The position numbers were made by a program, and so were the translations under genes. Source: an uncultured Arenicella sp. (GTDB lineage: Bacteria > Pseudomonadota > Gammaproteobacteria > Arenicellales > Arenicellaceae). From it: DNA of 64,000 nucleotides. The stretch lies in assembly GCA_938048185.1 (NCBI GenBank), contig CALIVT010000018.1, positions 1 to 64,000 of the forward strand, in the 5' to 3' direction. The notes under the pieces were generated by a model. That model made no database searches and was not told the origin of the DNA. It worked only from the letters and a program-made list of their open reading frames with translations. The stretch's first letter is position 1. Every line of letters begins with the position of its first letter. Shown piece by piece: positions 47,600 through 53,278 of this stretch.

Positions 47600-48394
47600 T
47601 TAAAACCCCCAGCGTGATTTAAATTTATAAGCAAAGCGCTTACCACTGCCGGCAGCTTGGGGCTGGTCGAAGTGCTCTAAAACTTGGCCTAAGACGATCA
47701 GCTCTCCAGCGGCTGAAAAACGCGCGTCGTGAATTTCAAGAGTAGTAACATTGTTAGGATTAACAACCGTGTCGAATTCGAGTGTCAGCGGTTCATCACT
47801 CGCCAATTGTCCTGTGCTCTTGGTTTGCGAGTATATTTTTCTGTCTTTTGAGATTACCAGCGCTCGCAACGTGGGTTGGTCACGGCTCAATAACTTTTGC
47901 ATCAAGCTGTCGCTTCTTTGCGAGTCAGAAACGTGTACGACCTCAATTTTAGTGATTTGTGAGCCGTAAAAGTACGCAGCAATCAGCGCGATAAGCACAA
48001 CCATAAGCGTCAAAACGCGCCGAGTACGACGCTTCATGTTCGGCCAGTGCGCACATGCATCGCAGGGCGTAGCGCCTGAGCATGTACTGCCGCCGCTTGG
48101 CGTGGGCAGGTCTATCGAGCAGTCGCAAGGCAAAGGTAAGTCGCTTCTATTATCGTAGTTGGTAGTGTGCCTGGTGCGTTCAGCAATGATGCTGTCTGCG
48201 GCACTTTTACAGGCACTAAAGCGTGCACTTATAAGAGGCAGGGCCGCAATTAAAGAGTTGTCACTGATGATTTTTTTAACTGCGTTCGAGCAGGTGTCGC
48301 CTCGATGCAGCTGGTGATGTGCGCAACTAAAGCCCTTAACGGGTGAGATCACGCGCTGATAAAAATAGATCAGCGCTAGGCAAAAATATTTCAT
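47600..48394 (-). CDS. YidD-domain protein with an extra membrane and exported domain
   Basis: A 264-residue protein. Residues 1-70 form a YidD (membrane insertion efficiency factor)-like domain: IYFYQRVISPVKGFSCAHHQ and TCSNAVKKIISDNSLIAALP, with cysteines at conserved places. A cysteine-rich linker (DLPLPCDCSIDLPTPSGG, ATPCDACAHWPNMKRRTRR) follows. Residues about 127-145 are a membrane helix (LTLMVVLIALIAAYFYGS), and the rest is a strand-rich outer domain of unknown type. E. coli YidD has 85 residues, so this is a fusion. Convergent with hisD. Confidence 0.75.
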   Translation of the reverse strand: MKYFCLALIYFYQRVISPVKGFSCAHHQLHRGDTCSNAVKKIISDNSLIAALPLISARFSACKSAADSIIAERTRHTTNYDNRSDLPLPCDCSIDLPTPSGGSTCSGATPCDACAHWPNMKRRTRRVLTLMVVLIALIAAYFYGSQITKIEVVHVSDSQRSDSLMQKLLSRDQPTLRALVISKDRKIYSQTKSTGQLASDEPLTLEFDTVVNPNNVTTLEIHDARFSAAGELIVLGQVLEHFDQPQAAGSGKRFAYKFKSRWGF

Positions 48395-48495: not shown

Positions 48496-50610
48496 TTAAC
48501 GAATATGGACGTCTGGCCAGTTGTCGTTGCCAGTGTGGAAGGTTAGGCGAGTGGCTTCGTGCGGCTGGCTGCCGACCTTCCATAAGAAAATTTCGTAGTC
48601 GGCTACATCGTGTTCATGTTCTTTGCGGCTGCGACTTGCCCCAATAACCATGTATTCGCCGTTTGATGATTCTTTTGGCCAATACTCGTGACTAAACTCG
48701 CCTTGAAGGTCGATCAGGGTGGATACTGCAAGCGTTTCTTTATCTATCTTGACCACATGGTTGGTGTTGTCTCGACCACCGCTGGTAACTTGAAACAATT
48801 CTGTGCCAGCGCTGTTCCAGGAAATTTCACAGCCATTGTGAATGCCTCTGTGGGTGTCGCCATTTGATAAAGCAGTACCCCAGTGCCCAGTATTCATACC
48901 AATTAGGTTTTGACGGCCGGTAAACACAAACTCGCCCGTGTTTGGGTTGTACTTCGGGTTTTGTAATGCCGCGCCTTTGGGCATGGCATTATTGACCCCA
49001 CTCTCGTACAAGGTTTCGGCGTTTAGGTTTGCGACGTTGACCTTGATGACCTTGGTAGTGTCTTGCAAATAGCTTATTGATTCGTTGTCTACCCATGCTG
49101 GCGCTGTGCCATTGCTGCCTACTTTGGTTTCATTGCCACTGGCTATGTCTAATACGTAAACGTCCCACGCAACTGAGTTGCGCTGTGACATCCAAACTTG
49201 ATGCGCGCGCGCAAACACCAACCTTTTGCCATCCGGTGAAATGCGCGGATAGGTTTCGGTATTTGGGTGGGAAGTAAGTTTACTCAGTGCGAAGTCGGCT
49301 AAATCCAATTTGAAAATGTCGTGATTCCCGTCACGATTAGAGCTGAACACAACAAATCCGTCGATACTGCTAACGTGCTTTTTGGAAAGCTCGCGCCATT
49401 CATTGGCATCCGCCGAAACTTCACCTGCCGCCGGCGCAGACAAGGCCCCAAGCTTAGTTGCGGCCCACAGTTGATACGCTAGAAAACCGGAGCCGACGGC
49501 AAGAACGCCACCCGCACCAACCACACTGCCGATCTGTATCATACGTTTGCGAACGGCGGAAGCTTGCGCGCGTTCAACGCCTTTGCCGCGTCGGATAATA
49601 AAAACAAAGAGGGCGAGTAGCACGCCGCCAAGGATATATTCCATGAGTTGGCTCCAAATATGTACTGAGAGTAAGGTGACAACCGCCGCCGCTTGATTGC
49701 TCACGCCGAGAAGCTGAAACACCAACGCGCCGCCAGCTTCATAGGCGCCAAAGCTCATAAACGTTGGTACCGGTAAGCTCGCGCCTATTTCGCCACCAAT
49801 TAGCGCGCCAACGGTGTGCTCAAGCGGAAGTTCTGCGAGTTCGGCGAAACTCGGGCCGGCGACGGCCTGAAAAAGCAAATACATACCGGCGTATTTTAAT
49901 ACTCTAATCATCACTGACAGCGCAACCACTTGACTTGTTTTTCCGGCATTACGTACCGCTTCTAAGCTTGCAGCAAAGTTGTTTAGCAGCTCGGTTAATT
50001 TAAACCAGAGCCCGGTTTCGGATTTAGCTTTGAAATTCTTATCGATGAATTTGTTTGCCCAGGGTGTGATTACGAATAAGCCAGCCAGCGCGATAACGCA
50101 CAGAACGATAGCTGAAATCATCGCGCCTAGCGCCCAGCCTTGAACGTCTCCGCCGAGTAGCTGCTTACCAATAATTAAAAAGACCACCACAAGTAACGCA
50201 ATGAAATCAAATGCAATACTGACCGCCAATGAGCTGGCGCAATGCTCGAGCTTTACGCCGTAGCCGCGGTTAAGTAGGCCCACATAGCCCAGTTCGCCAA
50301 GGCGGGCGGGCAACATGTCTACTATCATATTGCGAATGCCGGTTACCAACGCCATTTGTCTTAACGTAGGGACATTGGGTTCGCCACTCATGCTGAGCAA
50401 TAATCGGTAGCGATAAGCTCTAAAAAACAGAGTAGTTAGATAGATCACAAAGTAAGCTGCAACCAAGGTTAAGGACGTAGCTTGCAGTGCTGCTAGCACA
50501 CTAGGCCGCTCAAGGTCGGACAACCCGGAGTTAACGAGCTGGAGTAACAAGGCTAAAATCGCGAACGAGATGCCGATGGAAATTCCAATGCGCAGTAAGT
50601 TTTTTAGCAT
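48496..50610 (-). CDS. Flippase-like membrane domain fused to a beta-propeller
   Basis: A 704-residue protein. Residues about 1-335 are an LPG-synthase-type/UPF0104 membrane domain (FFRAYRYRLLLSMSGEPNVP, MIVDMLPARLGELGYVGLLN). A further membrane helix lies near 352-375 (IGSVVGAGGVLAVGSGFLAY). From about residue 405 to the end is a TolB/PD40-type beta-propeller, with repeats such as VVFSSNRDGNHDIFKLDL, YPRISPDGKRLVFA and the last RLTFHTGNDNWPDVHIR. The first part in relatives moves or modifies lipids; the propeller would lie on the outer side. No substrate is evident. An acyltransferase gene lies upstream. Confidence 0.82.
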   Translation of the reverse strand: MLKNLLRIGISIGISFAILALLLQLVNSGLSDLERPSVLAALQATSLTLVAAYFVIYLTTLFFRAYRYRLLLSMSGEPNVPTLRQMALVTGIRNMIVDMLPARLGELGYVGLLNRGYGVKLEHCASSLAVSIAFDFIALLVVVFLIIGKQLLGGDVQGWALGAMISAIVLCVIALAGLFVITPWANKFIDKNFKAKSETGLWFKLTELLNNFAASLEAVRNAGKTSQVVALSVMIRVLKYAGMYLLFQAVAGPSFAELAELPLEHTVGALIGGEIGASLPVPTFMSFGAYEAGGALVFQLLGVSNQAAAVVTLLSVHIWSQLMEYILGGVLLALFVFIIRRGKGVERAQASAVRKRMIQIGSVVGAGGVLAVGSGFLAYQLWAATKLGALSAPAAGEVSADANEWRELSKKHVSSIDGFVVFSSNRDGNHDIFKLDLADFALSKLTSHPNTETYPRISPDGKRLVFARAHQVWMSQRNSVAWDVYVLDIASGNETKVGSNGTAPAWVDNESISYLQDTTKVIKVNVANLNAETLYESGVNNAMPKGAALQNPKYNPNTGEFVFTGRQNLIGMNTGHWGTALSNGDTHRGIHNGCEISWNSAGTELFQVTSGGRDNTNHVVKIDKETLAVSTLIDLQGEFSHEYWPKESSNGEYMVIGASRSRKEHEHDVADYEIFLWKVGSQPHEATRLTFHTGNDNWPDVHIR

Positions 50611-50729
50611 TTATCTCTTAAATGTTTCTTTGGGGTTTTGTGCATTTTAGCGGCTGGTTGAACATTGTTGTTATCAGCCCGATTAGCCTAGGCGAAGGTT
50701 CAGACTGTAGCGTGATTTCTTACCAGAAA

Positions 50730-51503
50730 TTAAACTGATTGTTGGCGGTTTTTTAGTACTTTCATTGGCACGCCGGCGACCACATCGAACGCGCTCACCG
50801 ACTTGTTCACCACGGTACTGGCACCCACAATGGCGCTGTGTTCAATTGTCACGCCGTCAAGGACTTGAACATGGCTGCCGAACCAGACGTTATCGCCAAT
50901 GTGAATCCCGCCTTGCGGATACATGCCCTGTTGCTTGAAAGGCAGGTCTAGACGGTCGCTACCGTATGGGCCACTGCCGATAAAATAACAAAATGCGCCA
51001 ATCAATACATCGTCGCCGACACGCACGTCGCTGCCCTCAAGTGCGTGTACTAAGGTGCTAATGCCGACTGTGCAATTTGAACCGATGGCGATATCACCGT
51101 TCTTGCATGACAGCACAACGTTGCGGCTGATGATTGTATTGTTACCAATGACAATGCCGGCGTTGGCCCCGCCTTTGGCGTCGAGTACCGCACCATCGTC
51201 AATAATAACCCCGTCACCGATGTGGATTTTCTGGCCATGACGCAGAGCAACCCCTTGGCCGAAAACGACATTACTACCAACGTCGCCAAGTACCAACGGG
51301 TATAGAAACTTACGTAATACCAAGCCTAACGCGCCGGGAACCCACGAGGCGAAAAGCATAATCAGTTCATACTTGATTAAGTACCAAGCACTACTCGAAC
51401 CCAATGCTAAGTCTTGATAGCGTGCGAACGCCGACTTACTGTCATCGGTCAGTTGCTCATGCAAAGTGCCTTCGGACAAACCTGGTTTTTTATCGTGCGC
51501 CAT
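50730..51503 (-). CDS. Left-handed beta-helix (hexapeptide) acyltransferase
   Basis: A 257-residue acyltransferase-like protein. After a hydrophobic part (LIKYELIMLFASWVPGALGL) come hexapeptide repeats such as IHIGDGVIIDDGAVLDAK, IVIGNNTIISRNVVLS and VWFGSHVQVLDGVTI, ending in ASTVVNKSVSAFDVVAGVPM. This is the LbH fold that transfers acetyl or acyl groups from CoA to sugars. Substrate unknown; it may work with the downstream flippase-like protein (119 bases away). Confidence 0.88.
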   Translation of the reverse strand: MAHDKKPGLSEGTLHEQLTDDSKSAFARYQDLALGSSSAWYLIKYELIMLFASWVPGALGLVLRKFLYPLVLGDVGSNVVFGQGVALRHGQKIHIGDGVIIDDGAVLDAKGGANAGIVIGNNTIISRNVVLSCKNGDIAIGSNCTVGISTLVHALEGSDVRVGDDVLIGAFCYFIGSGPYGSDRLDLPFKQQGMYPQGGIHIGDNVWFGSHVQVLDGVTIEHSAIVGASTVVNKSVSAFDVVAGVPMKVLKNRQQSV

Positions 51504-51658: not shown

Positions 51659-53278
51659 ATGCAAGCTAAAATTTTCGACTACATCATCGTCGGTGCAGGC
51701 TCGGCTGGCTGCGTGTTGGCAAATCGCTTGTCGGCAGATCCAACCAAGCGCGTGCTCTTGCTAGAAGCGGGGGGGCGTGACTCTAACCCTTGGTTACATG
51801 TGCCTATTGGCTATTTCAAGACGATGCATAACCCGCGATTTGACTGGTGCTTTCACACTGAGAAGGACGGGGGTTTAAATCAGCGCTCGATAGAATGGCC
51901 ACGGGGCAAAGTTCTCGGGGGGTCCAGTGCGCTCAATGGCTTGCTGTATATTCGCGGCCAAGCTCAAGATTTCGACCGATGGTCTGAGTTAGGCAATGTT
52001 GGCTGGTCCTATAAAGAGGTATTGCCGTATTTCAAAAAATCTGAACACAATGAACGCGGTGCCGATCAGTATCACGGTTTCGGTGGCGAGCTGTCAGTAT
52101 CAAACATTCGAGTGAGAAGTGAATTGTGCGAGCGTTTTATCGACGCAGCCGAGCAGCACGGAATCCCTCGAACAGATGACTTTAACGCTGCGAGTCAAGA
52201 AGGCGTTGGATATTTCCAGCTCACCATTAAGCAAAATGGTTTACGTTGCAGTACCGCTAGCGGCTTTCTCAAGCCGGTAAAACGGCGCGAGAACTTGGTC
52301 GTAGCAACGAATGCTCTAGCGCATAAAGTATTGTTCAAGGGGCTGCGCGCATGCGGCGTAGAGTATTCAGTAAACGGTGATACGCGTGTTGCGCATTGCT
52401 CGCGTGAGGTTATTTTAAGTGCTGGAACTATTGGTTCGCCGCAGCTACTCATGCTGTCTGGCGTTGGCGATGCGTCGCACCTTGCGGAGCATAATATTCA
52501 CGCGCTAAAAGATTTGATTGGTGTTGGTCAAAATTTGCAAGATCACCTTCAGGTTAGAAGCATATACAAAGTCAATAAACCGATTACCATCAACGACGAG
52601 CTACGCCGCCCTTGGCGCAAGCTTTGGATGGGGCTTGAGTACGCGCTTTTTCGGCGCGGCCCGTTGACCATGGCAGCCAGTCAGGTGGCTATTTTTACCC
52701 GCAGCAACAATGTCGTTAGTCGCCCGGACATCCAGTTTCACTTACAGCCCATGAGTGCCGATAAGCCTGCTGATGGCGCACACCGGTTTTCGGCGTTCAC
52801 CGCGTCGGTCTGTCAATTACGGCCTAGCAGTCGTGGCGAAATTAAACTGCGGTCCGCGAAACCCGGTGATGCTCCGGCGATTATTCCCAATTATTTGTCT
52901 ACCGCCGATGATCGGCAAACCGTGATTGATGCAATAAAATTAACCCGGTCCATCGTATCGGAACCGGCCTTGGGTAGCATAGTTGAACAACAATATGAAC
53001 CGGGTGTTGATGTGCAAAGTGATCAAGATATCTTGGAATATGCGCGAAATCGCAGTACCACAATTTATCATCCGGTTGGCACCTGTAAAATGGGCGATGA
53101 CGCGCTGAGTGTGGTCGACGCACGTTTACGCGTTCATGGGTTACAGAGTTTGCGTGTAGTTGATTGCTCTATCATGCCTGAGATTGTGTCGGGCAATACA
53201 AATGCCGCCGCGATTATGATTGCCGAGAAAGCCGCGGATATGATTAACGACGATAATAGCCAATCAAAAGCTACTTAA
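51659..53278 (+). CDS. GMC-family FAD oxidoreductase (choline/alcohol dehydrogenase type)
   Basis: A 539-residue GMC oxidoreductase. The FAD dinucleotide motif is IVGAGSAGCVLANRLS (about 10-25), followed by WPRGKVLGGSSALNGLLYIR and GSPQLLMLSGVG. The active-site histidine is in HPVGTCKMG near residue 467. It oxidises alcohols, choline or glycerol-type substrates with FAD; AlkJ- or BetA-like. Its stop overlaps the end of the convergent gene by 8 bases (53271-53278). Confidence 0.93.
   Translation: MQAKIFDYIIVGAGSAGCVLANRLSADPTKRVLLLEAGGRDSNPWLHVPIGYFKTMHNPRFDWCFHTEKDGGLNQRSIEWPRGKVLGGSSALNGLLYIRGQAQDFDRWSELGNVGWSYKEVLPYFKKSEHNERGADQYHGFGGELSVSNIRVRSELCERFIDAAEQHGIPRTDDFNAASQEGVGYFQLTIKQNGLRCSTASGFLKPVKRRENLVVATNALAHKVLFKGLRACGVEYSVNGDTRVAHCSREVILSAGTIGSPQLLMLSGVGDASHLAEHNIHALKDLIGVGQNLQDHLQVRSIYKVNKPITINDELRRPWRKLWMGLEYALFRRGPLTMAASQVAIFTRSNNVVSRPDIQFHLQPMSADKPADGAHRFSAFTASVCQLRPSSRGEIKLRSAKPGDAPAIIPNYLSTADDRQTVIDAIKLTRSIVSEPALGSIVEQQYEPGVDVQSDQDILEYARNRSTTIYHPVGTCKMGDDALSVVDARLRVHGLQSLRVVDCSIMPEIVSGNTNAAAIMIAEKAADMINDDNSQSKAT

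Follow-up and report, generated by a model that had tools for sequence, protein, structure and literature searches.

Architecture and distribution of the flippase-propeller protein

The window analyzed here is a stretch of 64,000 nucleotides from an uncultured Arenicella sp. and corresponds to contig C18 of the 3.12-Mb genome G000. Its minus strand carries a gene for a 704-residue protein (hereafter the flippase-propeller protein) in which a membrane domain of flippase type is joined to a TolB-like propeller, preceded by a gene for a hexapeptide-repeat transferase homologue (Table 1). The original prediction, which was made from the sequence alone, had described both genes with the correct coordinates, strand and lengths, and its union of a UPF0104/LPG-synthase-type membrane part with a TolB-like propeller in one protein agrees with the Pfam and fold matches given below. 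The gene is the sole match within G000, and among named records the closest copies come from Arenicella. The fusion is real, rare and conserved, its architecture is new within a known flippase family, and the function that we infer for it is weighed further below.

Table 1 Features of the flippase-propeller locus, with positions in the window
Feature	Position	Strand	Basis
Flippase-propeller gene, 704 aa	48496..50610	minus	Open reading frame list; Pfam; AlphaFold2
COG0392/UPF0104 (LPG_synthase_TM) flippase-type membrane domain, residues 1-343	49582..50610	minus	Pfam, AlphaFold2, conservation
Further transmembrane helix, residues 352-385	49456..49557	minus	Full-length model; charge count
TolB-like propeller, residues 415-704	48499..49368	minus	PD40; TolB fold match; conservation
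Hexapeptide-repeat transferase homologue, 257 aa	50730..51503	minus	Upstream, frequent partner
119-bp gap between hexapeptide gene and flippase-propeller gene	50611..50729	minus	

Up to an E-value of 0.1, the only Pfam matches of the protein were LPG_synthase_TM (residues 14–314; 68.5 bits, cut-off 33.4), PD40 (residues 443–468; 45.8 bits, cut-off 20.9) and a weak DPPIV_N, and the first of them places the membrane half in COG0392/UPF0104 by the Pfam gathering cut-off. In the AlphaFold2 model of the full protein (mean predicted local distance difference test, pLDDT, 86.6; predicted template modelling score, pTM, 0.67) the domains are well modelled and, given this pTM, their mutual placement is unsure, while residues 1–345 folded alone reached a pLDDT of 90.6 and a pTM of 0.87. 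When the model of the membrane half was searched with VIA-align, the top six entries were all MprF (Z 15.8–19.4, 283–296 residues aligned at 4.9–5.3 Å) and the next row stood at 5.5. Together with the Pfam match, this fold bears out the flippase-type domain that had been predicted. The family alignment comprised 35 rows (propeller in 32, flippase half in 27), and R93, D98, P101, R103, G105, E106, R236, E274, E291, H317 and Q321 were invariant in all 27 rows with the flippase half.

The loop before the further helix (residues 337–357) holds seven K/R and one D/E, so that by the positive-inside rule the following helix would place the propeller in the periplasm, a charge pattern in line with the outer-face location that had been proposed. 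In the three split forms and the five stand-alone ones, the propeller protein begins with a short, positive N-terminus and a hydrophobic stretch. PD40 was found in all 20 family members scanned, and the closest solved fold of the propeller model is TolB (3iax, Z 25.9, root-mean-square deviation 2.8, 250 residues; TolB-Pal complexes 2w8b and 2hqs, Z 25.7 and 25.5). Identity as TolB was rejected, the NCBIfam model TIGR02800 scoring 38.4 bits vs. an equivalog cut-off of 343.15; the protein shares the propeller fold with TolB of the Tol-Pal system but fails this model, is fused to a membrane domain and has invariant His-rich positions of its own. His 430, 641, 665, 667 and 692 are invariant in all 32 propeller rows, as are D431, D668, D671, D696, E666, R426, R456, R468 and R477.

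A chance reading frame or an assembly fusion is ruled out, because all 18 genomes of the genus match (in G011, G016 and G017 a contig end truncates the copy) and two other phyla contain fused relatives of full length at 35–39% identity. At the order level 50 of the 109 genomes were positive, three of them with the propeller alone (G021, G034, G044); G026 carries the flippase and propeller halves on separate contigs, and G024 has a fused copy (one of L057/L064) plus a separate stand-alone propeller. The class sample contained nine positives among 369 gammaproteobacterial genomes (four from the genus itself) and the phylum sample a single genome with the propeller among 398, namely G000, which makes the architecture as uncommon as the original prediction had supposed. 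As the sampled genomes are related by phylogeny, Fisher values on genome counts are descriptive. The two-domain search that had been suggested as a check located the fusion in Arenicellales, Desulfobulbaceae (including cable bacteria) and Auribacterota; the genome scan, which was seeded by short patterns and hence biased towards closer relatives, yielded 36 loci in Arenicella, other Gammaproteobacteria, Desulfobulbaceae (including Electronema and Electrothrix) and Auribacterota. The Electrothrix copy (L045:7893-9988) spans two overlapping frames, i.e., a frameshift or a sequencing error. The plasmid search gave no match. In the literature searched, mostly outside subscription journals, no description of a COG0392/UPF0104 member with a propeller turned up, and together with the rarity in the genome samples this speaks against an architecture that is widespread and already characterized, as the original prediction had allowed it might prove to be.

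Across the 32 propeller rows the form is fused in 24, split into adjacent genes in three and propeller alone in five. A single branch (99/98) of the midpoint-rooted propeller tree divides separate from fused forms, so that one fission or one fusion is enough, and the flippase tree (27 rows) recovered the same main groups with weaker basal support. These proportions, with one change on the tree, indicate that the two halves belong together.

Gene company of the flippase-propeller gene and its relatives

The protein encoded 119 bp upstream on the same strand has the fold of hexapeptide transferases: its Hexapep repeats, of the left-handed helix kind seen in O-acetyltransferases of the WcaF/WbbJ/GAT type, score 50.5 bits (Pfam cut-off 27) and its best solved match is SACOL2570, with a THPL stretch in an extended loop (three alignments, all to SACOL2570). 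The His of this extended loop is presumably the catalytic one. No conserved loop His was found across the 16 rows aligned, any His being present in six of them and none in the window protein, and residue 153 is His in eight rows, including the window protein, and Gln in the other eight. The hexapeptide acyltransferase originally placed directly upstream is thus confirmed in its position and repeats, but acyl transfer, lacking a conserved loop His, is not assured. Within the genus the hexapeptide gene lies within about 200 bp of the flippase-propeller gene in nine of the 18 genomes and within 5 kb in 12; it is ~39 kb away in G007 and on another contig in G003, G008, G010 and G011, and among the 18 genomes it was not found in G016. 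At the order level, 65 of 109 genomes match the hexapeptide gene at 1e−25, and strong copies (E at most 1e−90) occur in 37/50 positive vs. 9/59 negative genomes, by which the co-occurrence suggested for checking was borne out.

For the wider neighbourhood, we used a reference set of AsnB-like, ArnC-like, other glycosyltransferase, second-flippase or similar genes and 56 propeller-bearing loci (the set after eight copies were removed), the neighbour analysis covering all loci but L074–L101 and L122. At least one gene of the set was nearby in 33/56 loci, the other 23 having none, and surface-glycan genes thus stand beside many relatives. The 11 Desulfobulbaceae loci (L035–L041, L045, L046, L055, L056; several contigs end there, and the match of L056 is limited to the last 70 residues) carry an ArnC-like glycosyltransferase of family 2 (GT2) downstream in nine cases, a hexapeptide gene upstream in eight and a second flippase directly upstream in seven. 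A DUF6020 protein, which we take to be GT-C-like, accompanies the ArnC-like gene and the flippases in three of these loci, and L037 (scanned) and L046 have Wzt/Wzm-type genes in their clusters as well. In both of the latter, a 599-residue YcaO-domain protein with tetratricopeptide repeats stands upstream of the hexapeptide gene, flanked by the Wzm/Wzt-type genes on one side and the flippase cluster on the other (L037 scanned, L046 by BLAST cluster). At the Auribacterota copy L054, the end is overlapped by a gene that resembles ArnT (73.2 bits, cut-off 567) and is outside the reference set. An AsnB-like gene stands head-to-head in 8/8 examined loci of genera g5/g301 and is absent from L119, the single g16 locus, and in L051, L066 and L067 about 4 kb or less separates the propeller gene from a stand-alone FlpB-type flippase gene.

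The ArnC-like gene has a counterpart, 55–59% identical to it, in 17 of the 18 genus genomes, and that of G000 lies on contig C13, where RmlA, RmlB, Wzt/Wzm-type and glycosyltransferase genes cluster around it; no GT-C was found among the scanned members of this polysaccharide cluster. The ArnC-like gene was rejected as a specific marker, because it is broad in the order and occurs in 24/59 negative genomes. In the class sample, 60/369 genomes match at 1e−60, and strong copies (1e−120, a cut chosen after the list had been viewed) were found in 7/9 positive vs. 2/360 negative genomes, the nine positives including four of the genus itself and three of one other genus. The genes for a short-chain dehydrogenase/reductase (SDR), a flavin adenine dinucleotide (FAD) oxidoreductase and a family 4 glycosyltransferase (GT4) are together on contig C12 of G000, and a gene like that of the putative GT-C c21 is also on another contig. 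Genes for c21, FAD, GT4, SDR, AsnB, hexapeptide and FlpB proteins follow one another in G049, a genome with only a flippase-half relative.

Proposed function and its alternatives

We tentatively read the 704-residue protein as a lipid-glycan flippase of the inner membrane that carries its own receiver on the periplasmic side, and would put this reading somewhat short of probable. It rests on the fold of both halves, on their conservation and on gene company, all obtained directly by computation, and translocation followed by capture is the simplest account of them. Cytoplasmic enzymes would assemble a lipid-linked sugar or modify it, with undecaprenyl phosphate as the likeliest carrier, the candidate enzymes being the upstream hexapeptide transferase and, elsewhere in the genome, the GT4, the SDR epimerase, the FAD oxidoreductase and the ArnC-like GT2. 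The MprF-like domain would carry this lipid-linked sugar to the outer leaflet, where the helix-anchored TolB-like propeller may bind the emerging head group through a single face rich in His, Asp, Arg and Trp, and hold or process it for a periplasmic acceptor or a GT-C glycosyltransferase, a step that in this organism would decorate a surface polysaccharide. The original prediction had suggested that membrane protein and acyltransferase could jointly modify a lipid or glycan and display it on the outer face; this is partly supported, by the flippase domain, the periplasmic side and the glycan neighbours, with flipping, substrate and acyl transfer as its putative parts.

A more far-reaching version, i.e., an undescribed class of lipid-glycan flippases whose periplasmic propeller binds metal, captures the flipped sugar and perhaps completes it chemically, seems doubtful. 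If true, such a capture propeller would link translocation directly to extracytoplasmic glycan decoration, and the class would span Arenicellales, Desulfobulbaceae (including cable bacteria) and Auribacterota with a modular history of fused, split and stand-alone forms. The conserved fused periplasmic domain offers a handle on the substrate, which a propeller structure with ligand would name, the natural split and stand-alone versions let each half be tested apart, and the function would be informative for the envelopes of marine and cable bacteria.

COG0392 flippases are widespread, and the cargo of most is unknown. Members of the same Pfam family, such as GpgF and the C-terminal domain of AglD, share the association with glycosyltransferases. 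PMC5898192, whose tenor on these proteins is similar, proposes COG0392 proteins as flippases of lipids or glycans and describes archaeal COG0392 genes that adjoin PMT/STT3-related and AglD-like genes; in PMC12713373, the UPF0104 gene of gpgSDF stands as a putative flippase gene. MprF resembles the flippase-propeller protein in the fold of its N-terminal flippase domain (Z up to 19.4) and in having a fused soluble module, but this module is a phosphatidylglycerol synthase in MprF and a propeller, periplasmic by charge, here; no MprF-type synthase domain was among the Pfam matches up to the E-value given above. A precedent is provided by three-component systems of undecaprenyl-phosphate-linked sugar, flippase and GT-C (GtrA/GtrB/Gtr type; polyprenyl-phosphoribose, MATE flippase, GT136); ArnC-like glycosyltransferase and flippase genes likewise occur together around the Desulfobulbaceae relatives, and an ArnT-like gene lies beside one Auribacterota relative. 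In PMC11127046 the flippases of these systems are of GtrA/SMR or MATE types, however, and the putative components are scattered in the genome of the window.

Several observations weigh against a flippase with a periplasmic receiver. On the side of the protein, Foldseek by itself matches the membrane half to MprF at a weak E of 0.012, so that this likeness is supported by the VIA realignment plus Pfam, and the narrower NCBIfam flippase model TIGR00374, whose cut-off of 43.2 is exceeded by the FlpB next to the L035 copy (49.7 bits), was not among the matches of the 704-residue protein up to E 0.1. Six positives of the order have the flippase half alone (G039, G041, G046, G049, G057, G430). As to gene company, the reference set was itself picked from observed neighbours, the 23 loci without a reference neighbour (some of them short) include long ones of families f9 and f69 as well as both Auribacterota loci, and none of the eight labelled flippase-only loci has such a neighbour. 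The second flippase at seven Desulfobulbaceae loci may itself be the carrier of the substrate. In the genome of the window the ArnC-like gene is on a different contig from the flippase-propeller gene, and in the order it occurs in 41/50 positive but also 24/59 negative genomes. A homologue of c21 was present in only 8/18 genus genomes, with 19.2 bits for c21 against Pfam PMT (cut-off 22.7), and the best AsnB match in the genus reached 1.9e−119 vs. 1e−200 or better where the cassette was found. The hexapeptide transferase, finally, is missing or weak in 13/50 positive genomes of the order and strong in 9/59 negative ones.

The main rival, which we consider rather unlikely, is a flippase of glycophospholipids. 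Its substrate would be a sugar-headed diacyl lipid as in gpgSDF, the GT4/FAD/SDR cassette and the hexapeptide transferase would make this lipid, and the propeller would sense or shield it once flipped. GT4 is paired with a UPF0104 protein in gpgSDF (PMC12713373), the Arenicella GT4 weakly matches the model of the gpgSDF synthase (29.1 bits, cut-off 480), GT4 and FAD genes are close to the flippase-propeller gene in six of the 14 named Arenicella-group loci (L021–L023, L026, L027, L044), and the FAD gene is present in 15/18 genus genomes. However, the ArnC-like, ArnT-like and Wzm/Wzt-type neighbours in other lineages suit a polyprenyl carrier and a polysaccharide better, and in G014 the GT4-FAD-SDR cassette itself adjoins a polysaccharide cluster with an ArnC-like gene.

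The remaining alternatives concern the propeller. That it is a periplasmic glycan-acting enzyme, perhaps metal-dependent like oligogalacturonate lyases, with the membrane half mainly delivering the substrate, is unlikely in our estimate, even though the invariant His, Asp, Glu and Arg residues listed above would suit it, a Foldseek hit to oligogalacturonate lyase reached E 3.5e−8, and 3pe7 contains manganese, going by its title. Near-invariant positions favour the BC/DA over the AB/CD loops (26/82 vs. 6/57, Fisher p 0.004; strands 41/147), loop names that presumably follow the usual propeller convention, but the contrast on mean conservation was weak and not significant (reached by 685/10000 permutations). 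Furthermore, the hidden Markov model match to these lyases covers only the shared repeat region, the Pfam matches of 20 members at E 0.01 included no lyase family, and kinship with PL22 and DPP-IV is likewise at the shared-repeat level only. That the propeller instead docks proteins, as in TolB, and tethers the flippase to a partner in the outer membrane or to a polymerase is very unlikely: TolB, including its complexes with Pal, is the closest solved fold, but invariance in the propeller falls on polar and aromatic residues rich in His, which persist across phyla whose neighbours differ, and no outer-membrane protein was among the identified recurring neighbours, with no search aimed at one.

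Other genes in the window and at related loci

A 264-residue protein (47600–48394, minus strand) has an N-terminal YidD domain (TIGR00278 69.3 bits, cut-off 40; Pfam YidD 25.2, just below the cut-off of 27) followed by ~195 residues with a hydrophobic stretch, and a glucose-methanol-choline (GMC) oxidoreductase gene lies divergently at 51659; neither had a BLAST counterpart among the proteins of the examined relatives' loci. A recurrent cassette, whose membership varies by locus, was observed at L124, L125, L126, L051, L105 and L106, and its members are an AsnB-like amidotransferase, an SDR epimerase, an FAD oxidoreductase similar to glycerol-3-phosphate dehydrogenase, GT4, a hexapeptide transferase, FlpB and c21. 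Together with or near this cassette, L048, L066, L067 and L125 have a GMC oxidoreductase, a small protein with a twin-Arg-like start and a methyltransferase. After the stand-alone propeller gene of L050 (scanned), L052 and L067 (both by BLAST), there is a protein of ~950 residues with a spermidine-synthase-like domain.

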